Shown here: piece after piece, positions 1 through 17,921 of the stretch
Layout of the letters: the number at the start of each line of letters is the position of its first letter
Numbering within the stretch: position 1 is the first letter of the stretch
From: Paracoccus ravus
Lineage (GTDB): Bacteria > Pseudomonadota > Alphaproteobacteria > Rhodobacterales > Rhodobacteraceae
NCBI RefSeq assembly: GCF_004522175.1
Contig: NZ_SDEB01000020.1
Coordinates: 1-64,000, forward strand
Direction: 5' to 3'
DNA: 64,000 nucleotides
Made by a program: the position numbers and the translations under genes
The notes under the pieces: generated by a model
What the model saw: only the letters and a program-made list of their open reading frames with translations
What the model was told of the DNA's origin: nothing
Database searches by the model: none

Positions 1-69
1 CACATCCGCATTGCACTGATGAACCGCTTCAACGCCCTCGGCACTGCCGAGATTGATCGCGTGGCCTGA
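1..69 (+). CDS. 3' end of an unidentified upstream gene (partial)
   Basis: An open frame enters from the left edge and stops at TGA 67-69, giving 22 residues that end in EIDRVA. It is too short for identification. If the TTG start of the next gene is used, the two frames overlap by 17 bp, as is common in compact phage-type operons. Confidence 0.4.
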   Translation, partial: HIRIALMNRFNALGTAEIDRVA

Positions 70-2623
70 TCTCAAGGGGGAAAGGGGAAAGTCTGGCTCA
101 GACTGGGCTTCTGCAACAATGCCCATCGGAGACCGCGATAAGGTCCTGAATGGCGAAAAGGTAGAGGCCAGTTACTACACAGTAACGGATACGCTGGAAC
201 CGATTGAGTTTCAGGACCACCTGACTGGTCGCATCGGCCTCAGCATCGTCCTTAACTGCCTCGGCCCCAATGCCGAAGCAGGCGATTATAATCGCGACCA
301 CTGCAACCGTGCAGCCGTCGATATTGACCACTATACCGAAACGCCGGAAGAACGTAATAAACTGGCTGCGGATGTTGCCGCGACGCTGGAAGCCCTCGGC
401 ATTCCGGTGCTGATGACCATCAGCAAGTCTGGTGGCGTCCATGCCCATGTCTTCTTTGCCGAACTGACCCCGGCGTCGCTGGCGAACAACTTGATGAAAC
501 GTCTAAGGCAGCATATCGCCCAGGCACTTGGGCTTGCCGTGGACAAGATCGACGCTTTCCCGAAGCAGGAATTGGTCGATTACGACATGAACGCCAATCC
601 CCTCGGCAACAAGGGGAACGGCCTCAACCTCTGCTACAATGGCACCAACCGCCTCGGCTGGTCGCCTGACGGACCGCTGCCAGCGGACGTGTTCTTCCAG
701 CGCTGCAAAGCTGCGAGGCTGGACGCTCAGGCGGTGCAGAAGCTGGATCAGGCACTACCCCAGCTGACCCGCGACACCCGCCGCCCTACGGCGCAAGAGA
801 CAGCCGCTGACGCCAAGCTGAACCAGCCGGGAACCGCACTCTACGAAGGTCCACCGTGCTTGCAGAAGATCGTGGGTGCGGGCGTTCTCGAACACAACCG
901 CAACAATTTCCTCTACAGCTTGGGCGTGTTCTACAAGCGCGCTGGCATGGCCTCGGATGCTGCATCGCTGGACGAGATGCTGAAGGCGGACAATAACCGC
1001 CTTTGCCGCCCGTCGTTGTCAGACAAAGAGGTCAAGCCCATCGCCAAGTCGGTGTGGAAGACGGAGAATGCGTTCTACAAATGCAAGGAAGATCCGATCT
1101 GTGGCGTCTGCAACAAAGAGTTGTGCAAGACGCGCCAGTTCGGCATCGGGCAATCGGATATCCCCTACTATGACGATGTCGTGGAACTGATGGTCCAGCG
1201 CTTCCATGTGGTTGATCGCGGCGGTGAGCCAGTGGTCATGCATAGCAAGGTTCGCCCCAGCCGCTTCCACACCCGCCGCGAATGGGAGACGCAGACATTC
1301 ACGCAGTTCAAAAACCTGCTCATCAACGAAACTGTCTGGGTGATGCAGGGACAGAAGATGGTGGAGGCCCAATTGGCTGACACCTACCTCAAGGACCGCA
1401 ACCGCAAGACCTTTGCTGGAGTCGTCCTCGACCCCGAGAACGAATGGCCCGACCACCTGAACCTCTGGCAAGGCTTCGCTGTGGAACCAAATCCCGGTGA
1501 CTGGTCCCTGTTTGAAGACCACGTCCGCGAAGTGATCTGCGCCGGAGACCAAGAGCTGTTTGACTATGTGCTTGGCTGGATGGCCTGGAAGATCCAGAAC
1601 CCGTGCAGCGTCCCCGGCGTTGCGCTGGTGCTGCGCGGTGGGCGCGGCGTCGGCAAGAACACCTTCTTCGAGAACTATGGGAAGCTGTTCGGCCAGCACT
1701 TCTACATGACGGCGCATGGCGATCAGGTCATGGGGCGCTTCAACGACCACCTCATGGACTGTTGCCTGCTGGGGGCTGACGAAGCGTTCTGGGCCGGGGA
1801 CAAGCGCCATGAGGGCGTCCTCAAAGCCATGATCACCGGCGAGCAGCTTGGGTTCGAGGGCAAGGGCCGCAAAGCCATACAAGCCGACAACCACCTCGGG
1901 GTGATCGTGTCTTCGAACAATGACTATGTGGTCCCGGCTGGCCTCGATGAACGTCGCTTCTGCGTCATGGATGTCAGCGAAAAGCACAAGCAGGACGATG
2001 CCTACTTCAAGCCGCTGCGCGAGCAGATGAACGCCGGAGGCCGCGAGGCTATGCTGCACGACCTGAAGGCGATGGACCTCAGCGCGTTCAATATCCGCAA
2101 AGTGCCACAGACCAAGGCACTGGCGGACCAGAAGCTGGAAGCCGCACCGACGTTCCTGAAATGGCTGGTTGACGTGCTGACCCTTGGCGAGATCGAGTGG
2201 CCGTATAAGAGCAGCGCAGGAACGCGAACTGAATCATGGACTCGCGGCGCGACGTTTGAGATCAACAAGCCCCACTTCTTTGCTGCATACCGCGAGTGGT
2301 GCAAGCACAATACCCGTAAAGGTGGAACGGAGACAGGGCAGAAACTTGGCAAAGACGTTGGAAAATACCTGTTCCCGAAGAAGACCGTGAAGCAGAAGCG
2401 CAAAGGCCAGTCTGGCGATTATATCTACTGCCTGCCACCACTGGAAGAAGCCCGTAAGTTGATCGAGGCGGCGATTGGGGGCAGCATTGACTGGGGGGAT
2501 ACCGACGCCGAGGTGATCCCTTTTGAACGCGGGGCAGAGGCGCAAAAGGAAACCCACGATCCAATACTGGACGACATGTTCAGCGATGATGTCACGGACC
2601 AGATCAGCAAAGCACGTCATTAA
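53..2623 (+). CDS. Primase-helicase with AEP-like primase and DUF5906/SF3-like ATPase domains
   Basis: This is probably the replication initiator of the element, combining primer synthesis with DNA unwinding. The N-terminal quarter resembles archaeo-eukaryotic-type primase domains of phages and conflict systems. It has a DxD pair in AVDIDHY near residue 90, a KSGGVHAH motif near 125 and an FPKQ motif near 166. The C-terminal half has a Walker A GGRGVGKNT at about 529-537 and an acidic Walker B-like GADEAFW about 45 residues later, as in DUF5906 helicases of prophages. The start is uncertain: TTG at 53 overlaps the preceding gene, ATG at 119 is the first ATG, and neither has a clear ribosome binding site. 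The iteron dyad begins about 100 bp past its stop, which supports a replication role. Confidence 0.8.
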   Translation: MIAWPDLKGERGKSGSDWASATMPIGDRDKVLNGEKVEASYYTVTDTLEPIEFQDHLTGRIGLSIVLNCLGPNAEAGDYNRDHCNRAAVDIDHYTETPEERNKLAADVAATLEALGIPVLMTISKSGGVHAHVFFAELTPASLANNLMKRLRQHIAQALGLAVDKIDAFPKQELVDYDMNANPLGNKGNGLNLCYNGTNRLGWSPDGPLPADVFFQRCKAARLDAQAVQKLDQALPQLTRDTRRPTAQETAADAKLNQPGTALYEGPPCLQKIVGAGVLEHNRNNFLYSLGVFYKRAGMASDAASLDEMLKADNNRLCRPSLSDKEVKPIAKSVWKTENAFYKCKEDPICGVCNKELCKTRQFGIGQSDIPYYDDVVELMVQRFHVVDRGGEPVVMHSKVRPSRFHTRREWETQTFTQFKNLLINETVWVMQGQKMVEAQLADTYLKDRNRKTFAGVVLDPENEWPDHLNLWQGFAVEPNPGDWSLFEDHVREVICAGDQELFDYVLGWMAWKIQNPCSVPGVALVLRGGRGVGKNTFFENYGKLFGQHFYMTAHGDQVMGRFNDHLMDCCLLGADEAFWAGDKRHEGVLKAMITGEQLGFEGKGRKAIQADNHLGVIVSSNNDYVVPAGLDERRFCVMDVSEKHKQDDAYFKPLREQMNAGGREAMLHDLKAMDLSAFNIRKVPQTKALADQKLEAAPTFLKWLVDVLTLGEIEWPYKSSAGTRTESWTRGATFEINKPHFFAAYREWCKHNTRKGGTETGQKLGKDVGKYLFPKKTVKQKRKGQSGDYIYCLPPLEEARKLIEAAIGGSIDWGDTDAEVIPFERGAEAQKETHDPILDDMFSDDVTDQISKARH

Positions 2624-2720
2624 TAAAAGCGCTTGCAAGGTAGAATGACGTTGCTAAACATAGAAGATGTGCGCCACACCCTATGCGGGTAGTTGGCGCA
2701 CATTGCATTAGCGGAAAGCA

Positions 2721-3036
2721 AATAGCCCATGTGCTAAAAAATAGCCCATGTAGTAAAATCACTAGGGCGCGCTTTTTGCTAGTGATATCAAGGGTGGCGC
2801 TCATGTTGCCCTAGTTGCCCATGTTAAATCAAGTTTGTGACGCGATCAGCGTTTTTTGCTGCGCGGTCGGCTTGACTGACGTGACGCTGTGTTTTGATGC
2901 AGAGACAAATAACTACTATAGCAACTATAGCAACATGAGCGCCATGCTTGAAAACAAAGGAAAAAAGCGCGCCCATGTGGGAAAATCACATGGGCTATTC
3001 AAAGCATCACATGGGCTATTTTTGTGCTACATGGGC
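2721..3036. repeat. Origin-like dyad: two ~90-bp inverted arms with seven GCCCATGT iterons
   Basis: The left arm (2721-2809) and right arm (2930-3020) are imperfect inverted copies around a 120-bp centre. Matched blocks are AATAGCCCATGT (twice per arm), GGGCGCGCTTTTT, and a 22-bp block at 2788-2809 against 2930-2951 with two mismatches. The octamer GCCCATGT or its complement occurs exactly seven times: 2725, 2744, 2817, 2971, 2988, 3009 and 3029. A smaller 8-bp hairpin ATCACTAG/CTAGTGAT sits at 2758-2786. The flanking genes converge on this region, so it is not an ordinary promoter. The arrangement resembles initiator-binding iterons such as the ori/crr of P4-like satellites. A replication origin for the adjacent primase-helicase is the best reading, by inference. 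Confidence 0.7.
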
Positions 3037-3073
3037 GCGCATTGTCGTCGATTGGCGATGGCAGTTATTGCCC

Positions 3074-3871
3074 TTACATCCCTGAGAGGATCGCCTTGAC
3101 CCGACGAATATCAACATGGAGTGGTTCTATGAAGATTGTTCGGGGTTCTGCATCAGGGACTTTCCGGTATTCGATAGTCTGACCGTTCCATTTGATCACC
3201 CACCCATTCCTTGCATGAGTTTCCTTTAGGAACTCGCCTATCGCAGGGTAAGAGATTAAGCGTCGGCGCTCAGGTAACATCTCCACCCCGGACTTGATCA
3301 GAGAAATAGCTTTCGCCTTTTTCTGCATCAACGCCGGAACATCCTTTTCCGAGAAGTTGTCGTTTGTGACAGCTTTTAGAACGGATTTGAGACCGCCGGC
3401 ACCATGCGAGATCATAGCATCGGGGACATACCCAGAGCCACCAAAGACATCATGGAGTTTTTGCAAGGTTTTCCGAATTGTGGCCTCGGCATGAAGTGGC
3501 CCATCTTCTAAAGCCTCCATCACCGCGGGCAATCCAGCAGTCAGCCGATCCGCAGCCTCTTTCCTTTTTAAACCGGAGGCTGCGAGGTTTCGGCGCCGGT
3601 CAATCGCACCTACCGTTTCTTTCCCTGCTATCTTGATCGCGCAGCAGTTACCGCAGAGGGCCAGTGCGCCGTCAGGTAGGACAGCGAAATACCCTCGGCG
3701 GTGAGCCTGACGTTGAGTGCAGAAGCTGCAACGGACTTCGTTATCCGCATAGTATCCCGTCGGCAGCAGATCGACCGGGCGAACGCCTGCTTCTACTTCT
3801 TGGACTACACCCGGTTGACCGAGTGGATTCCGAATGAGGAAACTATCTGCGACGTTAAAGGCCTTACCCAT
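3074..3871 (-). CDS. Hypothetical protein with a four-cysteine zinc-finger-like motif
   Basis: This 265-residue protein is not recognised. Cysteines at 48, 51, 73 and 76 (with a further one at 77) form a CxxC-x21-CxxC pattern typical of a treble-clef or zinc-ribbon metal site. The rest is soluble and mixed helical, with a basic segment near residues 90-105. It converges with the primase gene across the iteron dyad. A DNA-binding accessory replication or regulatory role is possible but cannot be shown from the sequence. Confidence 0.55.
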   Translation of the reverse strand: MGKAFNVADSFLIRNPLGQPGVVQEVEAGVRPVDLLPTGYYADNEVRCSFCTQRQAHRRGYFAVLPDGALALCGNCCAIKIAGKETVGAIDRRRNLAASGLKRKEAADRLTAGLPAVMEALEDGPLHAEATIRKTLQKLHDVFGGSGYVPDAMISHGAGGLKSVLKAVTNDNFSEKDVPALMQKKAKAISLIKSGVEMLPERRRLISYPAIGEFLKETHARNGWVIKWNGQTIEYRKVPDAEPRTIFIEPLHVDIRRVKAILSGM

Positions 3872-4546
3872 TCATCTCTCCAATTTCCCAAGATGGTTAT
3901 GCCCTCCCGTCATCATCGTATCCGCTTTGTTCTCTTGTGGCAACGGTGGAGATTTTCTCAATATATTGGTCAAGCGTAAATACCGCGTCTGCGCAACTGA
4001 CGCTGCACCTGCTGTGGGCTAGCCCTGATGCCTCAGGCTCATCGTCAAGCTGTTGCGGATGTGGGCCAGGTGGTGTGGTGGCGGTGCGGCTGGTTGGCTG
4101 GCGGGTGCATCCGTTCGGGTGCTGCGATGTCAGCTGAGGACGAAGCCGTCAGCCTATAGGTCGTTGCAACAATGCGGCTGTGGCTGCGCTGTGACGTCTT
4201 TGGCGTAGAAGGCTGCTGGCGTCTGCCGCAGGGGTGGTATGGGGCTGCATGGTCGCTGCCTTGTGCGGTCCACAGCGCGGCCCTGTGGTGGCATCCACGG
4301 ATGGTCCTTGGATGGATCGGCGATGAGCCCGTGGGGGGGCCATCCGGCGGGGGGGCGGTGGAGAAGAACGCAGCTCGGGTGGGCCAGCGCGCCGGGTCGC
4401 GGAATCTTTTAACGAACTAATATATTAGCGGCCCTTCAAGATCGTCCGGGACACGGTCTAGACCTTCACCTGCGCATGATTGCGCATATCCCGTTGACAT
4501 GGTGAGCACAACACCAGCATGGACAATCAAAAACCGGAGACCAACC
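3872..4546. other. 675-bp non-coding stretch, G-rich on the plus strand
   Basis: No convincing gene is seen here; the open frames are arginine- and tryptophan-rich and lack ribosome binding sites. From about 3990 to 4400 the plus strand is strongly G/T-biased with GCTG- and GGTG-type runs, and has two seven-G runs at 4333-4339 and 4349-4355. The last 130 bp change character and hold the AT-rich palindrome at 4417-4428, a direct repeat of TGCGCAT (4471 and 4481) and a TTGACA hexamer at 4494 upstream of tusA. Confidence 0.5.
4417..4428. promoter_or_regulatory. 12-bp perfect palindrome CTAATATATTAG upstream of tusA
   Basis: This perfect AT-rich dyad stands in otherwise GC-rich sequence, 119 bp before the tusA start. 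It has the look of an operator for a dimeric repressor. ArsR-type sulfur- or metal-sensing repressors use AT-rich dyads, but no regulator gene lies nearby, so the assignment is only a suggestion. Confidence 0.35.
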
Positions 4547-4771
4547 ATGACATACGACCAACACCTAGACGTTCGCGGAACGCTTTGCCCGATTCCGGTC
4601 ATCAAAGCAAAAAAAGCTCTCAAGAGCATGGCTGCCGGTCAACTTCTGTTGATCGAAACTACCGATCCAGTCGCGCAAATAGATATTCCGCACATGTGCC
4701 AACAGCTTGGCGTTGTGCTAGAAAGTGCCTCCGAGGTTGCCGGAGGCCACGCCTTCGTAGTGCGGAAATAA
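4547..4771 (+). CDS. tusA: TusA-family sulfur carrier protein
   Basis: TusA proteins accept persulfide sulfur from a cysteine desulfurase and pass it on, for example in tRNA thiolation. This 74-residue protein has the family length and fold, with the hallmark CPIPV motif and its acceptor cysteine at residue 14 following the DxRGxxCPxP pattern. The start ATG at 4547 is chosen because GGAGA (4536-4540) lies six bases upstream; an in-frame GTG at 4499 is less likely. The gene runs toward the dnd operon and stops 4 bp before the dndEi stop codon. That position next to a DNA phosphorothioation operon lacking its own cysteine desulfurase suggests a sulfur-relay role for DndC, which is an inference. 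Confidence 0.9.
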   Translation: MTYDQHLDVRGTLCPIPVIKAKKALKSMAAGQLLLIETTDPVAQIDIPHMCQQLGVVLESASEVAGGHAFVVRK

Positions 4772-4775
4772 TCGT

Positions 4776-6320
4776 TTAGGTGGGCGACCAAGATTGGGCT
4801 TTTCGCGCCGCTTGGTCGCCGCGACGTTTTACATAGGCCTGACCGGTCGAGAGCGTTGCCAAATTTGCACCTCGACCCAGAACTCGTGTTGCCGCCTTCG
4901 ACGGCGCATTAGTTGAGAATGCAGCAACCAAGCCCATCTCGCTCAAGAAATCATCATCTTCACCTGAAAAATCATCAGGGCTCTGGGATATGAGCATGAC
5001 AGCCCCGCCCTTTGAACGGCTCATACGGACCAAGTTCGACAGAGACGGAAGTCGAGAGCCAAGAACTCGATGAGCCTCATCGATCATTGCAATGATCCGC
5101 ATTCCACGACTGCCATCCTCAGCAACTGCGGTGTCAGGCAAACTGTTTAAATATTGGTCTAGGGCATCAAGTACGAGATTGACAACAATAGACCGGCTTT
5201 CCTCAACCACATGAGGCGGGAGCTTGATAATCCAAGACCGACTGAAGAACTCATCCGGCGTCAATTCTGGAGTGAACAACGGGAAGCGGCATATTTCGCG
5301 TGCGGCCGCGATTGCTCCATCCTCCTTCATCTCACGCTCGGCATAGATGCTGATCAGTTCTCTTTGAAAATCGTCCAACTGACAGGGCGTCTGCGAACGC
5401 AATGCCCTAGATGCTGCTTCATAGACTGCGTCACGTTGCTTGTCGCCGAGCCTCGCCCCCTTAAGGCGAGAAAATGATTCGCGAAACCGTGAAGCAGCTT
5501 GCGAAAGATCAATGTCGTCCCGCGACCGCAAAGCCAGCACATTGAGCGGGACAGGCATCCTGGGAGGCTCGATAACAGTCGCGTCATATAGCTGCTCCAG
5601 ATGATACCCACCGCCAGATTCGTCGGTCGCTAGATCTCCCTTAAAATCAAACGCAATTATAGGTATCGGCGCCGCCTTTCGCACCGCCCGAAGAATGGAT
5701 ACGGCTGTCCTCGTTTTGCCGGACCCGACACCTCCCATTACTGCGCTATGCGGCGAGCATCCCGGGCCATTCAGGACCCATTCTATGGCAGCACCGGAGT
5801 TTGCATCTGTCGAAATCTCGCCAACAGGGACAGATATTAACTCATTGCTAGAAAACGGGTCGACATTCTGAGTTCGTTCACGGTGCTTCATCCGCCCAGC
5901 CAATGGCAATTCAGCATGCTCAACGAGTTTACGAACAAAGCGTGAGATGTCCTCGCCACTCTGCCGCCAGTCTGCATCAAGCAAATTGATCCCACGACGC
6001 CAATGCGCTGCAACTGCGCCCACAAGCCCACGAACGTCGTATTCCTGATCTGGACCATGTTGAACAATCAAGGAAACCCAGGTCATCAGATCCGCGCCGG
6101 TTCCAAAAAATGTGTCACCTTTTATGGTTTTCCCCCAATCGGAATCCGACGAAATCGACTCCGGGCGTGATGGAACTCCAAGAGATCGAGATAGCGCAAG
6201 ACGCGCAGGCAAGTAGCGTTTTCGCATACCGAGCCGCTTCATGAACTCGCTGTTCAATTCGTCGGAGGCTTCGTCAGTGCGGAAATTTGCCCCTGCAATG
6301 TCAACGATAGAAATAGTCAT
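4776..6320 (-). CDS. dndEi: DndE-HerA-type ATPase fusion (DndEi) of DNA phosphorothioation system
   Basis: The first ~136 residues match the small DNA-binding protein DndE: a helical segment from about residue 20, then the GTGADLMTWVSL stretch and the hallmark HWRRGINLL at 106-114. The remainder is a HerA/VirB4-like ATPase with Walker A GGVGSGKT at 196-203, Walker B IIAMIDEAH at 409-417 and a downstream SQSPDDF sensor-like segment. Fusions of DndE to a helicase-type ATPase are known in a branch of phosphorothioation systems. The start ATG overlaps the dndD stop by 4 bp (ATGA), so the two are translationally coupled. It is the last gene of the operon. At 514 residues it appears intact. No DptFGH or Pbe restriction genes lie in the window, so the ATPase may be a modification partner rather than a nuclease component. 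Confidence 0.85.
   Translation of the reverse strand: MTISIVDIAGANFRTDEASDELNSEFMKRLGMRKRYLPARLALSRSLGVPSRPESISSDSDWGKTIKGDTFFGTGADLMTWVSLIVQHGPDQEYDVRGLVGAVAAHWRRGINLLDADWRQSGEDISRFVRKLVEHAELPLAGRMKHRERTQNVDPFSSNELISVPVGEISTDANSGAAIEWVLNGPGCSPHSAVMGGVGSGKTRTAVSILRAVRKAAPIPIIAFDFKGDLATDESGGGYHLEQLYDATVIEPPRMPVPLNVLALRSRDDIDLSQAASRFRESFSRLKGARLGDKQRDAVYEAASRALRSQTPCQLDDFQRELISIYAEREMKEDGAIAAAREICRFPLFTPELTPDEFFSRSWIIKLPPHVVEESRSIVVNLVLDALDQYLNSLPDTAVAEDGSRGMRIIAMIDEAHRVLGSRLPSLSNLVRMSRSKGGAVMLISQSPDDFSGEDDDFLSEMGLVAAFSTNAPSKAATRVLGRGANLATLSTGQAYVKRRGDQAARKAQSWSPT
4783..4820. terminator. Inverted repeat at the tusA/dndEi junction, possible terminator
   Basis: GGCGACCAAG at 4783-4792 is exactly complementary to CTTGGTCGCC at 4811-4820, with an 18-base loop. 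It lies just past the tusA stop and inside the last codons of dndEi. It could stop tusA transcription before it runs antisense through the dnd operon. A short T-run follows only after a gap (GTTTT, from 4826), so this is not a textbook intrinsic terminator. Confidence 0.35.
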
Positions 6321-8395
6321 TGACGGGCTCCATCCTCAAAATAACCCTCGGAAACGGACGACACTCCAATATCACCCATTCGCTCAAAGCTCACCAGATA
6401 CTTCTTCTGGATATGTGGCTCTATAGCGTCCAGGTACTCACCCACGACCTCAGTGTTTGTCGTAAGCAAGATAACTTGATGCCCGCGTTGCACCAAATGG
6501 CGCAGAACGCCATTACGATGTTCGGTATCTAGACGGCCAAGGGGCGTGTCGATAACCATCGGGAAAGATCTTTGGGAAACCGATGCCACCGCAGAAATCA
6601 ATGCTTGCGTGAAAATTTGTTTTTCCCCAGCAGATAGATCGAAGTTTCTCAAATCTACCCCTTGTGAATTAAGCAGTTTAACTTCGCACTCTTCTGTAAT
6701 TTCGATGCGATCAACGAGGTCCTTTTTATGAGCCATCGAGTGATGAGCATCCGTCATCGCTTTCGCTACGGCGTTGATCTGACTTGGAACAGCTTGCGCA
6801 ACTATTGTGTCGACCATACTTGCAACTTTCAGAGCACGGCTCGCGCGACGGAGTGAGGGCTTCGCCTGATCCCACTGGCCGGAGAGCTTCGACAACTCTG
6901 CATTTCTCTTGGCGATGTCGGCATCGTACACCACTATTTCACGCCGGAAAGCGCCAAGCTCCTGATCAACCTCGCTCAAACGAGCATTGATTGCATTAAG
7001 CTCATTCTTCTTTTTGTCGATGTGAGGAGTGATTGTCTCGGTACGCAAAATTTCCTGCTGCAACTTGTACTGCGCATCCTCGTCAGCAGAAATTTGATCA
7101 AGCAATTCAACGACGGTTGGTGCTCCAAGTTCGTCCAGAGCATCAATCTTTTCGATAACCTTCACACGGTCAATTTCATTCAAATAGGAATGAAGAATTT
7201 TTTGAGAAACGCCTTCCGGCGGTGGGCTCCAGAGGGTTTCCCAGGCTTCTCGCGCAATCGAAACGACGGAATCTTTCTGAATGCTATCAAGGTGAGGTTG
7301 GACGCGCTCCAATGACGTGCGAACGCTTGCAACATAGCGCTCAAGGTTCGCGTCGCCTTGCTGGCGGCCTGCCACCCATTTTTGCCGAATAATTTCCCCT
7401 TGGAGGCTCTTTTTAAGCTGTTCACGCAATCCTCGCCCGCAAAGCGCAGGTGCAATATCTTGAGCTAATAGCGACTCCAAATGGGATTTCCCATCCTCAA
7501 CGCTTCTCTGTAAGCGATTTAGTTTCTCGTACTGTTCCTGAAACTGCGCTTGCGATCCAGCGCCAAAGCTTGCGAGCTCCCGCGTGAGCTTTTCACGCTG
7601 CTCCTTGAGATTAATATGCTCTGGCTCAAGTTCAGCAATTCTTTCGCTCCGCTTCCCCCGCTGGAAATTTAGGTTATCGAGGTCAAGTTCAATTCTTTCT
7701 ATGGTATTATCGCTAACGTTATTCACCTCGCCTTTGCGGACGCGAGCGTAAGCACGCAAGTCCTGCGCAAGCTCCCGCAACACCGGAATTCCCAGCAGCC
7801 CTTCAATGCCAGAGCGGACTTGCGCAGCCATTTCACGCTCAGCAAAAGCACTAACCTGTTCACCGTCGAACAAGAAAAAGGCCGCTAGATAATAAGGCAA
7901 GAAGCGCTTAGCTATGTAGTCTCGATACCACTCTAAATCATCTCCATCGTCTGCTGAACGTGGACCGACAACCTTCTTAGTTGAGCCTTCGAGTATCCGG
8001 ACCTCTTCATCCGACGGCTTGAATTGACCACGTTCGCTAAAGTACCATACGCGCTGAATTTCAATCTCTTCATCGTCATCAACAAACGTCAACTTAACCG
8101 AACATGAACTTCGGCCAGCGTCGATTGCGCCTCGATGGAGAGCTTTTTCAAGAAATGACCTATAAGAGGTTGCCAGCCTCTGCTTGTCGTCACTTGAAAA
8201 CGGAGAACGGGCCACGAGAGGTAATCCACTCTGCCCAAAAAGGCCAAGCACGATAGCCTCAAAAAGAGACGTTTTACCGTACCCATTCTGTGCGCCAATC
8301 AGAATGATATTCTTGGCACTAGTGGGAGCGGGGAATTCGAATGATGCGACTGCGTAGGCCTTCCAGTCACGAAGTACAATGCTCTTTAGGTACAT
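6317..8395 (-). CDS. dndD: DNA sulfur modification protein DndD (SMC/Rad50-like ATPase)
   Basis: DndD is an SMC-like ATPase needed for sulfur insertion into the DNA backbone, probably handling DNA structure or nicking. This 692-residue protein has the expected layout. Walker A GAQNGYGKTS lies at 34-43, followed by two long coiled-coil arms through the middle (heptad-rich stretches between about 220 and 520), the ABC signature LSAGEKQ at 587-593, and Walker B ending in MVIDTPLGRLD at about 613-623. The start ATG follows the small protein gene by six bases, with GGAGAT about nine bases upstream. Its stop overlaps the start of dndEi. The AT-richer composition and codon use differ from the host genes to the right, which supports acquisition with the element. 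Confidence 0.93.
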   Translation of the reverse strand: MYLKSIVLRDWKAYAVASFEFPAPTSAKNIILIGAQNGYGKTSLFEAIVLGLFGQSGLPLVARSPFSSDDKQRLATSYRSFLEKALHRGAIDAGRSSCSVKLTFVDDDEEIEIQRVWYFSERGQFKPSDEEVRILEGSTKKVVGPRSADDGDDLEWYRDYIAKRFLPYYLAAFFLFDGEQVSAFAEREMAAQVRSGIEGLLGIPVLRELAQDLRAYARVRKGEVNNVSDNTIERIELDLDNLNFQRGKRSERIAELEPEHINLKEQREKLTRELASFGAGSQAQFQEQYEKLNRLQRSVEDGKSHLESLLAQDIAPALCGRGLREQLKKSLQGEIIRQKWVAGRQQGDANLERYVASVRTSLERVQPHLDSIQKDSVVSIAREAWETLWSPPPEGVSQKILHSYLNEIDRVKVIEKIDALDELGAPTVVELLDQISADEDAQYKLQQEILRTETITPHIDKKKNELNAINARLSEVDQELGAFRREIVVYDADIAKRNAELSKLSGQWDQAKPSLRRASRALKVASMVDTIVAQAVPSQINAVAKAMTDAHHSMAHKKDLVDRIEITEECEVKLLNSQGVDLRNFDLSAGEKQIFTQALISAVASVSQRSFPMVIDTPLGRLDTEHRNGVLRHLVQRGHQVILLTTNTEVVGEYLDAIEPHIQKKYLVSFERMGDIGVSSVSEGYFEDGARQ

Positions 8396-8401
8396 AAAGG
8401 A

Positions 8402-8602
8402 TCAATCTCCGATCTCAATTCGATCAAGAATGTCATCGAAAGAATCCCAAAGACCTTTCTTCCTCTGCTTGCCGGTCTGATCGACTTCGGCTTGCACAAG
8501 CTCGACAAACTCTTGATAGTAGATTTTGTTCGCTATGCACTCTTCACGAACAAGAGATCTTCCTTCTGAGTTGTCAAACAATACGACGACATTCTGGGTC
8601 AT
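8402..8602 (-). CDS. Small DNA-modification-system-associated protein between dndC and dndD
   Basis: This 66-residue acidic/helical protein overlaps the end of dndC by 4 bp (ATGA) and precedes dndD by six bases, so it is clearly part of the operon. Small proteins at this position are seen in other dnd operons, but their biochemical role is not established. No catalytic motif is visible. It is probably a subunit or chaperone of the DndC-DndD complex, by position only. Confidence 0.8.
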   Translation of the reverse strand: MTQNVVVLFDNSEGRSLVREECIANKIYYQEFVELVQAEVDQTGKQRKKGLWDSFDDILDRIEIGD

Positions 8603-9762
8603 GTCTTATCCTTTTTCACCGTATCGACCGTCGTACGTGCACGTTTAGACGCATTCGAGGTCAGTTCTTCCGACCAGACTCGCTTAATTTCCTCAATCTC
8701 ATTACTTGAAATCAGCTCAACATCTAAATCAGCCTGTATCCCAAGGAGTCGATCTAGTATTTCGCTTCTCGCGTCCATTGTGAACGGCCCAGGAATGTAG
8801 GTTCCGGTGCTTGTGATCGTAATAGATCCATTTCTACGTCGCGCTTGCCGCTTTTCAGGGTTATTGCGAATAGAAACGAGCCAGTCACGAAAATCTAGCA
8901 GCGCTCCAAATTCAGAGAATCCGGACTCAACGAAGCCCTCAAGGCTTCTGTCTTTGTCAACAACCGTACAAGTCCAACATCCGAAGCGCGATGAGGAACT
9001 ACCACAGGAAGGAGCATCTGACTTCTGAGTAACGACTGGGCACTCTCCGCCTCCGGCGTCACGATAAAGCTTGATCAGCTTTCTATGGTCACCGCCCCAT
9101 GGGGCATCATTTTCGCCGAGGTACTCCCACACGTCATCAGTTGTGAGCTCAACGATGGGTCGAAAGACCAAACAACCGACAAGATCGTTGTGTCGATTTA
9201 AACGCTCGCCATTATCATAACGCTTAACGGAAGCAGCGCGTGTTGCAGATTCGCTGCGGCGTACACCAAGCAATAAAATGACATTTTGTGCTTCATCAAT
9301 GCGGGACTTGATGTAAGAACTTGTCGGCTGGATTTTCATCCGATCTGTACACCAACGAAAAGTTCTATTTGGCGAGGGATAACCTCGGCCGATTAAATTT
9401 ACCCAAAAGGTCTGTGAAATTTCAGGTCGCGTGATCTGCGTTTTAACAGGCAAGCGAAGGGCCATTGCAGCGTCGTGGATCTGTTCCAAGCTATCTACGA
9501 TATGCTTAATTACGAGAGGACTCTCAACAAGCGTATCATTTGACACGATGTGTACTTCTCTCGTGCGCTGACTGCGCGGCAGTGTCAAAAGAACCTTAAA
9601 GACCAAGTGAGCAACAAGCGTACTGTCCTTGCCACCTGAATAGCCGATGACCCACGGGTAGGTGTGTGGCTGTAGGTACTCGTCCCGTATCTCTGCCTCG
9701 ATGAGGCTTATAGCGTCATCAAGCGAAGTGTTCGAAAAATCGTGAAGACGTAGGTCGTCCAT
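8599..9762 (-). CDS. dndC: DNA phosphorothioation sulfurtransferase DndC (PAPS-reductase-like)
   Basis: DndC is the ATP-pyrophosphatase/iron-sulfur enzyme that activates sulfur for DNA backbone modification. Counting from ATG 9762 (387 residues), the PP-loop SGGKDS lies at 42-47. The RWCTDRMK segment characteristic of the PAPS-reductase-like fold lies near 137. Cysteines at about 241, 253, 262 and 265 match the four that bind a 4Fe-4S cluster in DndC proteins. An in-frame GTG at 9795 is an alternative start. The ATG is preferred because a TTGACA hexamer lies only about 20 bases upstream of that GTG, which would place it near or before the transcription start. It is the first gene of dndC-small-dndD-dndEi. 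dndA and dndB are absent, so a host cysteine desulfurase must supply sulfur. Confidence 0.93.
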   Translation of the reverse strand: MDDLRLHDFSNTSLDDAISLIEAEIRDEYLQPHTYPWVIGYSGGKDSTLVAHLVFKVLLTLPRSQRTREVHIVSNDTLVESPLVIKHIVDSLEQIHDAAMALRLPVKTQITRPEISQTFWVNLIGRGYPSPNRTFRWCTDRMKIQPTSSYIKSRIDEAQNVILLLGVRRSESATRAASVKRYDNGERLNRHNDLVGCLVFRPIVELTTDDVWEYLGENDAPWGGDHRKLIKLYRDAGGGECPVVTQKSDAPSCGSSSSRFGCWTCTVVDKDRSLEGFVESGFSEFGALLDFRDWLVSIRNNPEKRQARRRNGSITITSTGTYIPGPFTMDARSEILDRLLGIQADLDVELISSNEIEEIKRVWSEELTSNASKRARTTVDTVKKDKT

Positions 9763-10173
9763 GGGCGTTGAGCAAGTCTCGTTTTCTGCCAGCACCGTAG
9801 AAGTGCCAAGTTTTCTGTCAACGCCAAGCTATCCCATCCCCCTTCGCGTCGCAATGCTGGGACCCCAAAGCGCTACATCGCTTACGTTGCGTTTGCTGAA
9901 GCTTCAAGAATCTTCATCGTGCCAGACTTCAGGCCTGACGCACACCCTGGCTTGCCGAGTTGTGCTCACCGAGAGCAGTTGCAGAGAATTTTCTCTGCTA
10001 TTCAATGTTTGCCACGGGGAAGCTGGACCGGACGATGCAGCGCAACTTCGGCATCCGGCGCAAGCCCGGCTAAACGCGCAGATGATGGCTGCGAGGCGTT
10101 CTCAGCTACCCCTATAGCCGAGCCCCCTCTAGCAGCCATCTGCGCCACGCTGCGCACGGTGATCTGCGCTGTT
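9763..10173. other. Non-coding stretch upstream of dndC
   Basis: No gene is supported here. On the minus strand a TTGACA hexamer (about 9814-9819) lies just ahead of the dndC start region and may be part of its promoter, though no good -10 element is seen. The part from 10140 to 10190 has several CTGCGC copies in either orientation. The stretch separates the dnd operon from the five-gene operon upstream on the same strand. Confidence 0.4.
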
Positions 10174-10629
10174 CTACGCAGGGGCGCGCCCAAGCTGCCA
10201 GCCTCTGCGACCGAAATGCACCTCGGAGCCGTCGCCTAGCTTCGCATAGCGCCCTTTCGTCCAGGGCGTTGCGGGCATAGCAAGCCGGAGGCGCATCAGC
10301 TGCGCGAGGCTGTGAGGCGGCGCACCATTGAACTCGGCGGCAGGCGGAACCACGTCGGGGTCTTCTTGCTCCGGCAGATAGACGGCGGTGGCGAGCCCCG
10401 GAATGCCGTATTGAGTATGGTCGCCGAGCCACCTGTCAGCATATCCCATTTCGCCTTTTTCCGGCACATAGCCAGCGTCTTCGAGCGTCACCATAACTTT
10501 TTCGAGTTCCAGCAAACGCCCGCTAGGACGGTGGCAGATAAAATGGTTGCGCGGATTGCCGGTATCAAAAAGGATGAAGGCCGGAGCGATGGCTTCATTG
10601 TAGGTGAAGCCGAAATAGTCGATTTGCAT
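10174..10629 (-). CDS. Hypothetical protein, last gene of five-gene operon
   Basis: This 151-residue soluble protein of unknown family is rich in aromatic and proline residues and has no recognisable catalytic motif. The start ATG at 10629 is chosen because the sequence reads TAATG: the stop of the upstream gene shares a base with this start, a typical coupled junction. A longer in-frame extension to 10689 would overlap the upstream gene and is not needed. Confidence 0.6.
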   Translation of the reverse strand: MQIDYFGFTYNEAIAPAFILFDTGNPRNHFICHRPSGRLLELEKVMVTLEDAGYVPEKGEMGYADRWLGDHTQYGIPGLATAVYLPEQEDPDVVPPAAEFNGAPPHSLAQLMRLRLAMPATPWTKGRYAKLGDGSEVHFGRRGWQLGRAPA

Positions 10630-11303
10630 TATTCCTGACTCCTGTGCGACAGCTTTTCGAGTTCTCGGGCGATTTGGAAGGTGAGCCACGCGGCTTCTTC
10701 GGGATCGCGTTCGAGCGTTTCACGGATTCCTTGCACCGCGTCTTCTGCTATGGGGGAGATAATCGGCCTGAATGCCTCGACATCAACATCGGGAAGCAGC
10801 TTAACCAGTCCCGTCTGCATTTCCTTATTGCCGAATGTCGCAAAGCGCTTGATTGCGGTAAACGGCGAATCGAGGGCCGCCATATCATCATAGCAAAACG
10901 CGACGACGCCAGATTGATCATCGGCTTCCTGCGCCATTCGCATGTCAATATCGTGACGGTCGATATATCCGGCAAGGAGCATTGCTGCTTGCAATTCGGA
11001 CTGCCCATGTTCGGTTATGACATGGCGATGCAATCTTATGCCCACCAGTCGTTCCGCATCATCTTTGGGGAAGTTGCACAGGCGTCCATTACGGATATTG
11101 TTGAGCGCCATGACGACCATGACACCGAAACTAGTCATCGGGAATCTTTGCCGGTGATAGCTTTTGGTGGCGATTAGGACAGCAGCATTATCGTAACGGT
11201 CATATCTCACCAACCCATTTACACGCTGGAAGTAATAGGCAAGCACATGCTGCGCAGCATGAACAACGCGGCCGTTATCCTTTGGCAATTTTATCGCGGG
11301 CAT
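10629..11303 (-). CDS. Hypothetical protein, fourth gene of five-gene operon
   Basis: This 224-residue protein is not recognised. It has no membrane segments, a histidine-containing helical region in the middle (near VITEHGQ), and an acidic C-terminal helix. The ATG at 11303 is preferred over a TTG at 11333 because AGGGGA sits about nine bases upstream. The start lies inside the preceding gene (29-bp overlap), consistent with coupled translation. Confidence 0.6.
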   Translation of the reverse strand: MPAIKLPKDNGRVVHAAQHVLAYYFQRVNGLVRYDRYDNAAVLIATKSYHRQRFPMTSFGVMVVMALNNIRNGRLCNFPKDDAERLVGIRLHRHVITEHGQSELQAAMLLAGYIDRHDIDMRMAQEADDQSGVVAFCYDDMAALDSPFTAIKRFATFGNKEMQTGLVKLLPDVDVEAFRPIISPIAEDAVQGIRETLERDPEEAAWLTFQIARELEKLSHRSQE

Positions 11304-11871
11304 TGCGCAGAGTCCCCTTATAGGATTGACCAAGCCGCTGGTCCAAGCCGAGCATCAGCGACGTTGTATTTGACACATGCGCCATCTCTCGCGGCACCAA
11401 GAGCGGTGCAAGGATGTCGAGATCGGTGATTCCGATAAGCTCATCCGTCACCCGCGCTAGCTTTTCTGCATAGATATTGAAATGCGCCAAGGTCGCTAGG
11501 ATCGAGGTATCGCGTTCATTCTTGCTGGTGGTGATCTCATACAGGACGGAAATATCGCGGTCGGATAGAACACCCGCCTTCTCATAGGCTGCCAGACGCA
11601 AGGTTTCGGCAATATGCTCCTGCGGCATCAGGGCGAGTGGACCCAGTGCCGCAAGCGCCATTACCTTTTTCCTGATATGCGCCGGAACCTCGCCGGTGAA
11701 CGTCACAAACACCGCGCCTTTAGCGTCGATATGCAGCAACATATCCGAATAATATTTAGGGGCGGTGCGGTGCAGGGTCAGACAAGCCGAAACCGCGTGT
11801 GCGATTTCATGCTGGCAGACATCATAGGCGGTCTGCGGCTGGTCTTGATACGTCATGGCGGTGGCGCTCAT
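11275..11871 (-). CDS. Hypothetical protein with an HEIAH metallopeptidase-like motif
   Basis: The protein has 198 residues. Near residues 21-25 it carries HEIAHAV, which fits the HExxH zinc-binding helix of M41/FtsH-type and related peptidases. A long helical region follows, but no AAA domain is present, so it would be a stand-alone peptidase-like or pseudo-peptidase unit. Third zinc ligands cannot be assigned with confidence. The start overlaps the stop of the upstream coiled-coil gene by 4 bp. Within this operon it is the only gene with a hint of enzymatic activity. Confidence 0.6.
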   Translation of the reverse strand: MSATAMTYQDQPQTAYDVCQHEIAHAVSACLTLHRTAPKYYSDMLLHIDAKGAVFVTFTGEVPAHIRKKVMALAALGPLALMPQEHIAETLRLAAYEKAGVLSDRDISVLYEITTSKNERDTSILATLAHFNIYAEKLARVTDELIGITDLDILAPLLVPREMAHVSNTTSLMLGLDQRLGQSYKGTLRNARDKIAKG

Positions 11872-12356
11872 TTTGACAAAGCCCCCCGCATGACGATTCC
11901 TGCATTTTCTTTGCCGTCTACAAAGCAGGCGCGTTCACGCATGAAACCGATCGAGTATTTCACCATGCCTGCTTTGAGCGCCGCTAGCTTTGCAGCGGTG
12001 GCGTTCTGATACATGGCGTCGGGGGCATAGTTTCCGGCTAGCTTGATCTCGCTGCGCAACTCCTTAACCTCAGCCACCAGCGCGGCGACCTGGCTACGGA
12101 GTTCATCGGCCTCGCTGCGCAGCTTTGCATCCTCGACGCGCAGGGCATCGCGTTCCTCTTTGACCAGACGCGCCGTAGCTTCCATCATCGCTAGGCGCGA
12201 CTTCTTGTAGATGCCCACCGTCATGACCGTGCTGTCAGCGGGTGCGGGGGCGGTGGTGGCAAGCGCTGCTTTCACGGATGACCGCGCTACCTCATTGGAG
12301 GCTTTTGCAGTTGCCGCCTTAACGCGATCACGGTGAGCCCAAGGTGCTTCGGTCAT
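11868..12356 (-). CDS. Coiled-coil hypothetical protein, second gene of five-gene operon
   Basis: The 162-residue protein has an alanine-rich basic N-terminus and a clear coiled coil at about residues 60-105, where leucine and glutamate alternate in heptads (LRSEADELRSQVAAL and similar). No enzymatic motif is seen. It overlaps both neighbours by 4 bp. Pairing with the upstream helical protein through the coiled coil is plausible but unproven. Confidence 0.6.
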   Translation of the reverse strand: MTEAPWAHRDRVKAATAKASNEVARSSVKAALATTAPAPADSTVMTVGIYKKSRLAMMEATARLVKEERDALRVEDAKLRSEADELRSQVAALVAEVKELRSEIKLAGNYAPDAMYQNATAAKLAALKAGMVKYSIGFMRERACFVDGKENAGIVMRGALSK

Positions 12357-13171
12357 TTGCCACCTCCCATGATGCGGTGGATGTTCTCGGCCGCCTTTTG
12401 ATTACGGGCCTCTGCGGCGGCATCAGCGGCACGAGCACGCTCCACCGCCAGTTCCGCCGGGGTCATATGGCGCCTGCGCTCATTGCGCTTCTCATGCGCT
12501 GTCAGGCGGCGCTGAGACACAGCATCAGCCACAAGCTGCTTTGCCCCCGACGGTTGGATTCCTTTAGGCCAATGGGTCGGCAGGAAGTCTTTTAGACTGT
12601 GTTCTGCGAAGCGCTGGCGGGCCACCGGGTGTCCGTCACATGCCGCCCATGCTGCGCCGACGCACCTGCGAGCCTCGGCCTCGCACGGCCCTAGCTTGCG
12701 CTTGGCGGTCTCGATGTCGATGGCTAGCTGTTGCTCGGCTTCGCGCAGGCCGTGAAGCACCTCAGACAGATCGGCCTCTGCGGCATTGGGCGCAACGGAG
12801 AGAAGGCTGTCAGCAGCGCTGCGCATTTCGAGGGCGCAGGCCACCAGAGGCTCCGCTGCGAGTCCTGCCGGATAGTCGGCGGCTGTCCCCTCAAGGATCT
12901 TGATAGCAAGGCGCTTGGCTTCGAGAAGATCGCTTGCCCCCTCGACGGTTGCTTCAGCATCACGGAAGCCCTGCCTAGCGGTTTCTGCTGCTTTGACATA
13001 TTCCGCTGGGCCTCCCTCTAACTTGCCGTCTTCCATGCTTCGGGCAAGCCCCGCCGCATATTCAAGCGCGATACGCGCAACGTGTTGCGTTGAGGCAGAG
13101 CCGAGTTTTACTGAGAAATTCCCGCTGCAATGAACGATGGGTTGCAGTATGGGGATTGGTTGTTGACGCAT
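12353..13171 (-). CDS. Helical hypothetical protein, first gene of five-gene operon
   Basis: The 272-residue, alanine- and glutamate-rich protein is predicted mostly helical, with a basic, arginine-rich region around 225-245 that could contact nucleic acid. No known domain is recognised. It heads the operon: the ATG at 13171 follows a region with a perfect TATAAT hexamer. All downstream genes overlap head to tail, so the five products are made together. Confidence 0.6.
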   Translation of the reverse strand: MRQQPIPILQPIVHCSGNFSVKLGSASTQHVARIALEYAAGLARSMEDGKLEGGPAEYVKAAETARQGFRDAEATVEGASDLLEAKRLAIKILEGTAADYPAGLAAEPLVACALEMRSAADSLLSVAPNAAEADLSEVLHGLREAEQQLAIDIETAKRKLGPCEAEARRCVGAAWAACDGHPVARQRFAEHSLKDFLPTHWPKGIQPSGAKQLVADAVSQRRLTAHEKRNERRRHMTPAELAVERARAADAAAEARNQKAAENIHRIMGGGK

Positions 13172-13212
13172 GGGGGAGATACCTCGCCACTGGTTATTTA
13201 ACCTATGACGTA

Positions 13213-13218
13213 ATTATA
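13213..13218 (-). promoter_or_regulatory. -10 element (TATAAT) for the five-gene operon
   Basis: Read on the minus strand, a consensus TATAAT lies 42 bases upstream of the first start codon in an AT-rich spacer. The nearest TTGTTA is 21 bases further up, too far for an ideal -35, so activation by a regulator or another sigma factor is possible. Small inverted repeats (CTAAC/GTTAG, and GCCTC/GAGGC beside the hexamer) flank it. Confidence 0.35.
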
Positions 13219-13270
13219 TAGCCTCCCCCAAGAGGCGCCTAACAAAGAGTTAGATTAGATGGCAAAGAGT

Positions 13271-13963
13271 TTATCTTCCGTTCTCCGCCCCTTTGTAACC
13301 ATTCTTAATCGCGGTATAAGTTGCTTTCTCATAGCGGAACTGAAAGTCATCCATCTTCATACCCACCGCGACCTTGACACCATCGCATCGTTTCAAATGC
13401 GCGATGATTTCTTGCGGCGGCCGTTTTCTCTTAACGCTTGATAGGCTCTGATCCAGATTGCTCTTTAGCATATCCGCTATCGCTTGCAGGGCATCGAATC
13501 GAATATCTGTAAGACGCTTCCTTTTGCCGTCGTATGAAGCGGCTGCTTTCTCATACGCTGTGAGCCGCTTTTCGACTTTTGCAAAGCTCTGATCTAGGTC
13601 GAGACATTTCTTAGATGCCGGTGATCCATATTCAACTGGGTTCCGTGGGCGCTGCGCCTTACTAAACCGCGCATCTAATTCATGCAGCTTTTTCCTCGTA
13701 ATGAAGCGTTCATTGGCGCAAGATTTGAGAGGCAAACCCTCGTCTTCGCGTCTGATGTAATCTCCAAACTCCCCGTGGACCGCATAAAATGCCGTGCTAA
13801 GGACTGAGCGCTGCTTAATTTCCGTCTCGGCCTCATACATATCGAGGACGTCGCCGGTTCGTTCAACATAGTGGTCAGTTAGAGAAAAGCACTTCATATC
13901 TGCCATTGCTGCGGAACCGAATAGGCAGAGCGCCGCCGACATGGCAGCTAGTTGAATACGCAA
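13271..13963 (-). CDS. Secreted hypothetical protein
   Basis: The 230-residue protein begins with a typical Sec signal peptide: a basic start, a hydrophobic stretch rich in alanine and leucine, and a likely cleavage after AMA near residue 21. The mature part contains a few cysteines and a long lysine/arginine-rich helical region. No family is recognised. It sits alone between the five-gene operon and the integrase block, in a typical place for a cargo gene. A 7-bp inverted repeat CGCATTT/AAATGCG (13982-14008) lies in its upstream region. Confidence 0.55.
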   Translation of the reverse strand: MRIQLAAMSAALCLFGSAAMADMKCFSLTDHYVERTGDVLDMYEAETEIKQRSVLSTAFYAVHGEFGDYIRREDEGLPLKSCANERFITRKKLHELDARFSKAQRPRNPVEYGSPASKKCLDLDQSFAKVEKRLTAYEKAAASYDGKRKRLTDIRFDALQAIADMLKSNLDQSLSSVKRKRPPQEIIAHLKRCDGVKVAVGMKMDDFQFRYEKATYTAIKNGYKGAENGR

Positions 13964-14035
13964 TCCCTTGCTCCTTATTTACGCATTTGCGCTATTTTAC
14001 TAAATGCGCAGAGCATCCACAAACGGGAAACAAAG

Positions 14036-14068
14036 AAGGCGCAGCGGAAACTAATCTCGCTGCGCCTT
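14036..14068 (-). terminator. Intrinsic terminator after the small gene at 14080-14343
   Basis: AAGGCGCAGCG (14036-14046) pairs perfectly with CGCTGCGCCTT (14058-14068) around an 11-base loop. On the minus strand the stem is followed by TTCTTTG, and it lies just after the stop codon at 14080. The plus-strand side is followed by only a short T-run, so it mainly serves the minus strand. Confidence 0.7.
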
Positions 14069-14079
14069 TCATTATTCCG

Positions 14080-14343
14080 TTAAAGTCCGCGAGCCTTTTG
14101 AATGCGGCGGCGGCGTGTGGGCAAATCGTAAAGCCCATTGGCAACGTCACGGATTACCGATTCACGGTATCCATATTCGAGGCCAAGCTGGATATGTGGA
14201 GGGGCGGGGCGGTCTGGATGTCGCGTATCATTGCGTATCCAAGCAATCTTGCCCGCAAGGTTAAAACCAGCCGGAAACCCAAAGCGGGTGGCGTTCTCGT
14301 TTAGCTGGCTTGTCGGGATAATGCGATCTTCGTCGGATGCCAT
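14080..14343 (-). CDS. Small basic protein next to integrase, possible excisionase or regulator
   Basis: The 87-residue protein has a central segment resembling a DNA-recognition helix region and a very basic C-terminus (TRRRRIQKARGL). It is not a clear AlpA/Xis match, but size, charge and location beside the integrase fit a recombination directionality factor or repressor. The ATG at 14343 follows AGGT at about eight bases. A longer frame starting at 14403 would read through the inverted repeat at 14351-14395 and is rejected. The gene ends at a good terminator. Confidence 0.5.
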   Translation of the reverse strand: MASDEDRIIPTSQLNENATRFGFPAGFNLAGKIAWIRNDTRHPDRPAPPHIQLGLEYGYRESVIRDVANGLYDLPTRRRRIQKARGL

Positions 14344-14350
14344 AGAGCAC

Positions 14351-14395
14351 CTGTGGAAACAAAAGGTTGATCGGCCTTTCTCCTTGTTTCCACAG
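14351..14395. promoter_or_regulatory. Operator-like 12-bp perfect inverted repeat
   Basis: CTGTGGAAACAA (14351-14362) and TTGTTTCCACAG (14384-14395) are exact inverted copies separated by 21 bases. The repeat is directly upstream of the small basic gene, where the promoter should be, and 66 bp past the integrase stop. Centre-to-centre spacing of about three helical turns fits a dimer bound at each half or a looping regulator. Confidence 0.5.
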
Positions 14396-14461
14396 ATAGG
14401 CATTTTACCTAGATAGCCCGCGCTGTGCCGCGTTAGTCGGCTATTAATTGCAGTCTATGCG

Positions 14462-15679: not shown

Positions 15680-15692
15680 GTAACTGAATCCC

Positions 15693-15764
15693 ACTTGCGT
15701 TACTTGCCTCATTACTTGCGCTCTACTTGCGTGGATGGGCAAGTATGAACAAACTGACGCAAGT
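15693..15764. repeat. Array of ACTTGC(G) repeats upstream of int (arm-type sites or operators)
   Basis: Four direct copies of ACTTGC lie at 15693, 15702, 15714 and 15725, spaced 9-12 bp. Two inverted copies (GCAAGT) lie at 15739 and 15759. The fuller consensus is TACTTGCGT. Short, closely phased repeats next to an integrase gene are typical of arm-type integrase-binding sites, or of operators controlling int. The array lies between int and the host DUF1127 gene, exactly where an attachment site is expected. Confidence 0.6.
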
Positions 15765-15974
15765 AGGCGCAACGGGGTATCCCGACTAACCATCTTGAAC
15801 TGCAAGGAAACTCTTTTGAGCGCTGGCCGCGGCAGCTAAACGCAATCCCCGACCAGCTTAACCCTGCGTTAACCGGCCATCGCGTGGCGACATGGCTGCA
15901 ATGACGCGAAAGGGGCTACTCATGCTGCACCGCAGAACCCATTCTGATAGCGCAAACAGAAAGGATGATGAATT

Positions 15975-16214
15975 ATGAATGCAGCAGTGCTTAACCCCGC
16001 AGCTCGCGCCGGCCACGGTCAGATTGCGCAAGTTGGACTGGCCCGCCGGATCAAGGCCTTTTTCGTCGCACGTCAGGTCGAGCGGCGCACTTTTGACGAG
16101 CTTGACATGACCAGCGACCGCGAGTTGGCCGATCTGGGTCTGAGCCGTCACGATGTCGCCCGGCTCGCAAGGCTGGCGGGCCGCCAGGCCGCCGAGAAAT
16201 ACCTGGCCGCCTGA
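15975..16214 (+). CDS. DUF1127 domain small protein
   Basis: The 79-residue protein carries the DUF1127 motif near its C-terminus (ELADLGLSRHD at about 54-64), an arginine-rich helical domain widespread in alphaproteobacteria and linked in some species to RNA turnover or phosphate and carbon responses. AAGGA at 15961-15965 lies nine bases before the ATG. It is the first host-type gene right of the element and ends in a terminator. Its neighbour on the opposite strand is a phosphate transporter. Confidence 0.85.
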   Translation: MNAAVLNPAARAGHGQIAQVGLARRIKAFFVARQVERRTFDELDMTSDRELADLGLSRHDVARLARLAGRQAAEKYLAA

Positions 16215-16235
16215 GCGGCTCGGCGGCCTTGCTGC

Positions 16236-16269
16236 GATCCGGGCGGGTATGCCGCCCGGGATCGGTTTT
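16236..16269 (+). terminator. Intrinsic terminator after the DUF1127 gene
   Basis: GATCCGGGCGG pairs with CCGCCCGGGATC (one bulged base) around a short GTATG loop and is followed by GGTTTTC. It lies 22 bp past the DUF1127 stop, between that gene and the convergent phosphate transporter. Confidence 0.75.
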
Positions 16270-16313
16270 CGAGCCCGCCCGCGACGGACTCAGACTATCT
16301 GACTAAAGGCCCG

Positions 16314-17813: not shown

Positions 17814-17921
17814 TCGTCACATGCCCGTCAATCAACCGTCATTTTGCGCGCGGCATACAGTGCCCCGCGATCGCGCACAACCGCAGAGAGCCAATCTGTC
17901 GCATCCCTTCCGTTTCCGTCC

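Follow-up and report, generated by a model that had tools for sequence, protein, structure and literature searches.

The window, a 64,000-nucleotide stretch of a Paracoccus ravus contig, contains an iteron dyad (2721–3036) directly 3′ of a gene for a primase-helicase. We consider it likely that this dyad is the replication origin of an integrative element and is read by the adjacent primase-helicase, in the manner of SaPI and PICI origins. We favor this reading because the array layout recurs behind distantly related primases, because of the structure of the primase, and because SaPI/PICI and P4 provide precedents. The architecture is already known; the iteron word and its setting are new. The features of the region are:

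1–123, +, right end of an insertion sequence (IS); source of the ATG with which the primase frame now starts
119–2623, +, primase-helicase, candidate initiator (AEP-like domain, PriCT_1, DUF5906 SF3-type helicase, C-terminal domain)
1631–1957, +, DUF5906 SF3-type helicase part, within the primase gene
2267–2476, +, predicted winged-helix-like C-terminal domain (AF2; residues 717–786), candidate iteron binder
2667–2703, perfect 10-bp hairpin 3′ of the primase stop; possible terminator, with no T run after it
2721–3036, iteron dyad, candidate replication origin (repeat, BLAST, folding and shuffle analyses)
2725–2732, +, iteron 1, GCCCATGT, exact
2744–2751, +, iteron 2, GCCCATGT, exact
2799–2806, +, iteron 3, GCTCATGT, one mismatch
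2817–2824, +, iteron 4, GCCCATGT, exact
2825–2932, centre between the two iteron sets, 108 bp, 55.6% A+T
2933–2940, −, iteron 5, GCTCATGT, one mismatch
2971–2978, +, iteron 6, GCCCATGT, exact; the sole outward-facing copy
2988–2995, −, iteron 7, GCCCATGT, exact
3009–3016, −, iteron 8, GCCCATGT, exact
3029–3036, −, iteron 9, GCCCATGT, exact
3074–3871, −, convergent 265-aa ORF, stop at 3074; no known family
14462–15805, −, tyrosine integrase on the right of the low-GC element (Pfam Phage_integrase 2.6e-10, Arm-DNA-bind_3)

Seven exact copies of GCCCATGT lie within 312 bp (2725–3036), the first of them 101 bp past the primase stop, and one-mismatch copies (GCTCATGT) at 2799 (+) and 2933 (−) bring the total to nine. 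Markov shuffles of positions 2624–3073 contain a mean of 0.02 exact copies, and in 2000 shuffles of this 450-bp region no 8-bp word of any kind exceeded four. When copies with up to one mismatch are counted, sets of four and five iterons flank the centre and eight of the nine point toward it; the two-set layout with its 108-bp centre requires counting both one-mismatch copies. The shortest steps between iterons are 17–21 bp, not 9 bp. The A+T content of the centre is barely above that of the arms (53.8%), compared with 41.6% for the primase gene. The arms are inverted copies of one another, with 76% complementarity over 79 nt and 102 nt between them; BLAST aligns 99/101 nt at 74%. Aligned arm against arm, they share common blocks in conserved order, namely two iterons, GGGCGCGCTTTTT, TCAAG and TGGCGCTCATGTTGC. 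The first-pass annotation of this DNA had described the iterons as far more numerous than chance allows, the dyad as large and inverted with blocks shared in order, and its position as lying between the 3′ ends of the primase-helicase gene and a convergent ORF. All three descriptions hold, with stops at 2623 and 3074 placing the ends of both frames at the dyad.

The convergent gene is less certain than the primase gene because its 265-aa ORF has neither a family match nor a relative: Pfam, PADLOC and NCBIfam gave no match, PHROG gave one weak match of unknown function, and no relative was found in the other 197 family genomes or in the fetched primase loci. The ORF was accordingly rejected as a partner of the primase and dyad. 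Two ORFs that overlap the dyad (2815–3099, + and 2604–2804, −) have no NCBIfam match, and a tRNA search of the window found none.

Relatives of the primase were gathered from genomes, plasmids and phages and by an alignment-based search. They are distant, with best-segment identities of ~25–47%, and a pattern scan with the window protein alone found no close homologue in the genome or viral contigs. The array test takes the commonest exact 8-bp word, on both strands and within 320 bp, in the 450 bp past the primase stop; the threshold for an array, at least five copies, was chosen once the pattern had been seen in ~30 loci. The 144 primase ORFs with a stop were reduced to 106 at 80% identity and to 102 with 450 bp downstream. 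Loci repeating one already included (e.g. L074, L077) and four ORFs with less than 450 bp downstream were dropped before the count. For L038, L045, L052 and L070, whose counts are all 2, the BLAST match passes an in-frame stop and the downstream region was taken from the later stop.

Arrays of at least five copies, and up to 11, follow 40 of the 102 dereplicated relatives, the window included (39 of 101 others), and 48 of the 102 have at least four copies. Other 450-bp regions of the same loci served as controls and reach five copies in 9 of 1953 cases and four in 28 of 1953. The threshold of five is reached by 2 of 265 windows of 320 bp placed on intergenic gaps, and by 1 of 2040 Markov shuffles of the downstream regions. 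When only loci fetched after the pattern had been seen are considered, arrays are present in 25 of 73, versus 8 of 1260 controls, which answers the post hoc choice of threshold only in part. The remaining 62 of the 102 relatives fall below five copies, so the layout is not universal in the family. An initial survey of DUF5906 loci across the class gave fewer arrays, with at least five copies in 2 of 29 loci (L073 and L075) and three or four in several more; those of its loci that passed the filters are included in the 102. Phage records matching the primase number 245, and the only one counted, a Rhizobium phage (L053), has no array; an array is present in two of the four plasmid records analysed. 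Among named genome_contigs loci with an array, eight of nine bear alphaproteobacterial names and one is Polaromonas, in a sample biased toward relatives of the window.

These counts bear on further points of the first-pass annotation. It had proposed checking whether the dyad always accompanies this primase; judged by layout, an array does so at 40 of 102 loci and not at all of them. Its reading of the dyad as an origin stands to the extent that the array looks like an origin or cis-required site, on the strength of the comparison, the primase structure and the SaPI/PICI and P4 precedents. The suggestion that the architecture is new does not survive, given the comparable arrays behind 39 of 101 other primases and the match to published PICI origins (PMC6092414). 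Satellite is only a tentative label for the window element, the left part of which lies outside the contig.

The arrays have a common layout. Across the 40, the median distance past the stop is 14 bp for the start of the first copy and 282 bp for the end of the last. The largest step between neighbouring copies has a median of 109.5 bp, and the two copies bordering it have opposite orientations in 29 arrays (binomial p 0.006) and the same orientation in 11; the window falls among the latter if exact copies alone are counted. In A+T content the array centre exceeds the primase gene in 37 of the 40 arrays and the arms in 27. Steps of 9 bp are the commonest (52 of 239 intervals) and always join copies of the same orientation.

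The iteron word varies by lineage, examples being ACCCTGGA, CTGGGGTC, GGTTGGAC and GTCGGTAA. Similarity of iteron profiles correlates with similarity of the primases (Mantel p 0.0002 in both comparisons), r being 0.38 with the last 190 residues and 0.34 with the helicase part; the C-terminal region is scarcely a better predictor of the iterons than the helicase. Such a correlation would be expected of a site read by the primase, but it would equally arise if the module had been inherited as a unit. The genome also has a second DUF5906 gene (L250, G000:C34:184000-196000, ~6288), which is followed by seven copies of AGTGAAAA at +157 to +391.

Two small replicons illustrate the setting of these arrays. 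The IMG/VR contig L129 (10,857 bp) has ten iterons and is probably a complete 10.9-kb circle because its ends share a direct repeat of 127 bp. Its genes include those for a prohead protease, a capsid protein, a terminase small subunit and a DUF5906 primase, a content that suggests a capsid-carrying satellite. The circular 9.7-kb Roseomonas plasmid L049 has nine iterons, and among the nine genes scanned of its ten annotated genes the primase is the only replication protein by Pfam. Viral contigs with at least five copies have a median length of 12.3 kb (n = 15), compared with 48 kb for those with one or two copies (n = 19; p 0.001), the comparison omitting 17 contigs with three or four (median 40.7 kb). 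Arrays occur in 3 of 24 viral contigs of at least 40 kb versus 12 of 27 shorter ones; many contigs are incomplete, and the association of arrays with shorter contigs is only a trend. A separate observation concerns the Vibrio vulnificus plasmid pMP1 (L051), where positions 6574–6938 hold nine copies of TAACTGTA, three on the + strand followed by six on the − strand. This is a second, larger, dyad-like array with a word different from that of the array behind the pMP1 primase.

The window primase matches DUF5906 (1e-18), PriCT_1 (2e-7) and AEP-TOTE (2e-7) in Pfam, and its AlphaFold model is confident over residues ~350–790. The best solved match to the model is the helicase region of the NrS-1 phage primase-polymerase (Z 27.1), whose structures (6k9c, 6k9e, 6lrb) represent the closest solved fold and, among solved chains, are alone in matching clearly by sequence. 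The SaPI5 primase-helicase (7om0) is matched at Z 19.3, with an rmsd of 5.6 Å over 360 residues. In the AF2 model the C-terminal domain has the element order H-H-E-E-H, which is winged-helix-like. Its fold matches are weak, the best being the RFX1 DNA-binding domain (Z 5.9), with the ASFV tail and ORC at Z 4–6 and the P4 origin-binding domain (1ka8) at Z 4.5; these matches would indicate a fold class at best. A Foldseek search with this domain alone returned nothing below E 0.001 (best E 0.28). SaPI chains are absent from the best 50 of the matches ranked by Z, an absence that is no evidence against a likeness to SaPI.

The arrangement resembles that of known satellite origins. Through its C-terminal domain, SaPI Rep recognises iterons that lie immediately 3′ of the rep gene (PMC7581432). 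PICI origins consist of an AT-rich region between two iteron sets, and a rep-ori pair replicates a plasmid (PMC6092414). The window site likewise lies directly 3′ of its initiator and has two sets of short iterons around a centre, and the initiator combines an AEP domain with an SF3-type helicase whose model matches the SaPI5 structure. It differs from the SaPI5 protein in belonging to the DUF5906 branch and in being only 14% identical over the aligned part, and from PICIs and SaPIs in its word and spacing, in its Dnd/Pbe-like cargo and in a layout found also on small plasmids. The mapped origins of Gram-negative PICIs lie together with primase and DUF5906 genes (PMC10111431), and DUF5906 serves as a primase marker for PICMI satellites (PMC10803314). 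Gram-negative PICIs have one direction of transcription and, like them, the window element has an integrase, but its primase is on the + strand and most of the cargo and the integrase are on the − strand. Neither alpA/rpr nor terS was found among the window proteins scanned, a subset of the ORFs from the part of the element to the right of the IS. On these grounds, the known genes running in both directions and AlpA and terS being at most possible, the element is not classed as a PICI. SCCmec Cch2 provides a further likeness, with direct repeats right behind the helicase gene that are bound by the isolated C-terminal domain; it has three 5-nt repeats only and a separate polymerase, and its origin is putative (PMC7581432). 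A limited literature search found no earlier description of such DUF5906-branch origins outside PICIs.

In the proposed mechanism, the C-terminal winged-helix-like domain would bind the 8-bp iterons, which lie in two opposed sets. Each set would load one SF3 helicase hexamer, the pair facing each other across the 108-bp centre, which would then melt as the hexamers move apart. Priming by the AEP domain would lead to bidirectional theta-type replication of the excised circle.

Phage P4 offers both a likeness and the main competing explanation. The P4 crr lies directly 3′ of alpha and contains 8-bp type 1 repeats in both orientations, ~9 bp apart (NC_001609 annotation), and the P4 origin-binding domain is among the weak matches of the window C-terminal domain. 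Used as a positive control, P4 gives five copies downstream of alpha in the array test, and its next-best region, with four copies, overlaps part of the annotated ori. The dyad could be a site needed in cis, or one for copy control or partition, to which the primase or some other protein of the element binds while the strands open elsewhere; in P4 the array in this same place has a counterpart with the same word at ori. A second array is conceivable here as well, the left part of the window element being absent from the contig. We regard this explanation as unlikely. The circular relatives L049 and L129 have one array each, the exact word recurring outside it once in L049 and not at all in L129, and PICIs have single-site origins in this position (PMC6092414). 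In comparison with P4 and its two arrays (crr and ori), window positions 1–16300 hold a single exact-copy array, with the left part of the element absent from the contig. The window primase scores 25.6 bits against TIGR01613, the P4 alpha family, far below the cut-off of 108.7.

It is very unlikely that the dyad instead encodes a structured RNA or terminates transcription bidirectionally between the two convergent genes. In favour of this reading, both frames end at the dyad, the 10-bp hairpin lies at 2667–2703, and the dyad folds as single-stranded DNA with a z of −9.9 relative to shuffles. In a separate comparison of the 40 arrays the window has the third lowest z. The arrays of the relatives also fold better (median z −3.6) than downstream regions with one or two copies (−0.9). 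The strength of the dyad fold follows, however, from the presence of opposed copies of one word. The repeat unit is many 8-bp copies in both orientations rather than one stem, relatives use other words in the same place, and an Rfam scan of the window found no family at threshold.

A MITE remnant or other inverted duplication with no role in replication, which the two long inverted arms around a centre might bring to mind, is barely credible for a dyad that has a single BLAST occurrence in the 4.2-Mb genome where a multi-copy element would be expected, whose word forms only isolated pairs in the 124 other genus genomes, among the pairs listed, and whose position is filled in relatives by similarly arranged copies of other words. 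Of 125 genomes of the genus, that of the window among them, 32 contain pairs of GCCCATGT. Separately, two copies of TAGCCCATGT lie close together in 24 viral contigs, the exact copies all on one strand in each contig; these were rejected as kin sites, no primase relative being encoded in the stretches examined.

With the dyad taken as an origin read by its primase-helicase, an odd repeat becomes a testable initiator-origin pair. A search of the 450 bp past the stop of a DUF5906 primase provides a simple rule for finding candidate origins on elements of unknown replication, whether satellites, small plasmids or islands, and the lineage-specific words together with the related C-terminal domains form a natural data set on initiator-origin co-change. 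A wider generalisation is possible, although we lean slightly against it: DUF5906 primase-helicases may define a large and mostly undescribed class of self-replicating elements, comprising small plasmids, capsid-carrying satellites and defence islands, each with a private origin 3′ of the initiator gene. The lineage-specific word would change with the initiator, and sequence alone would suffice to identify origins and compatibility groups.

The window element is visible as a low-GC segment. From position 1 to ~16 kb the GC content is 0.47–0.59 per kb, with one block at 0.63, and the remainder is 0.60–0.69. Matches within 15500–18000 are present in 42 of 61 genus genomes, and the long ones begin near 16.3 kb. 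A search for an att pair found the right-end DNA repeated only as short, weak matches of at most ~30 bases, and hence no such pair.

At the left, the element is interrupted by the IS, and the part beyond it is absent from the window contig. Bases 1–123 are identical to the start of contig C51 and 87% identical to a segment of C47, in which the ORF sharing this C-terminal end encodes a DDE transposase (Pfam 7e-27). The same IS end begins both C51 and the window contig, so at least two near-identical copies exist. No contig end matched in a search for the other IS end, and a match in C89 was rejected because it lies 100 kb inside a 136-kb contig beside ABC-transporter-like ORFs (named by eye). 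The native primase start is lost or displaced by the IS. Profile alignments indicate that ~20 N-terminal residues are apparently missing, the helicase and the other parts of the AEP match being still present. The window copy may be inactive because the IS replaced the native start.

The remainder of the element carries cargo. Several − strand ORFs at 10174–14403 gave nothing above cut-off in Pfam and nothing informative in PHROG. Positions 4499–9795 encode a sulfur-type defence cargo that begins with a TusA-like protein (+) and a DndE-HerA-like fusion (−). These are followed, all on the − strand, by a PbeC/DndD-like SMC protein (PADLOC PbeC 2e-281), a small ORF and a DndC-like PAPS reductase. 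The adjoining of TusA and the DndE-HerA fusion may be an unusual layout.
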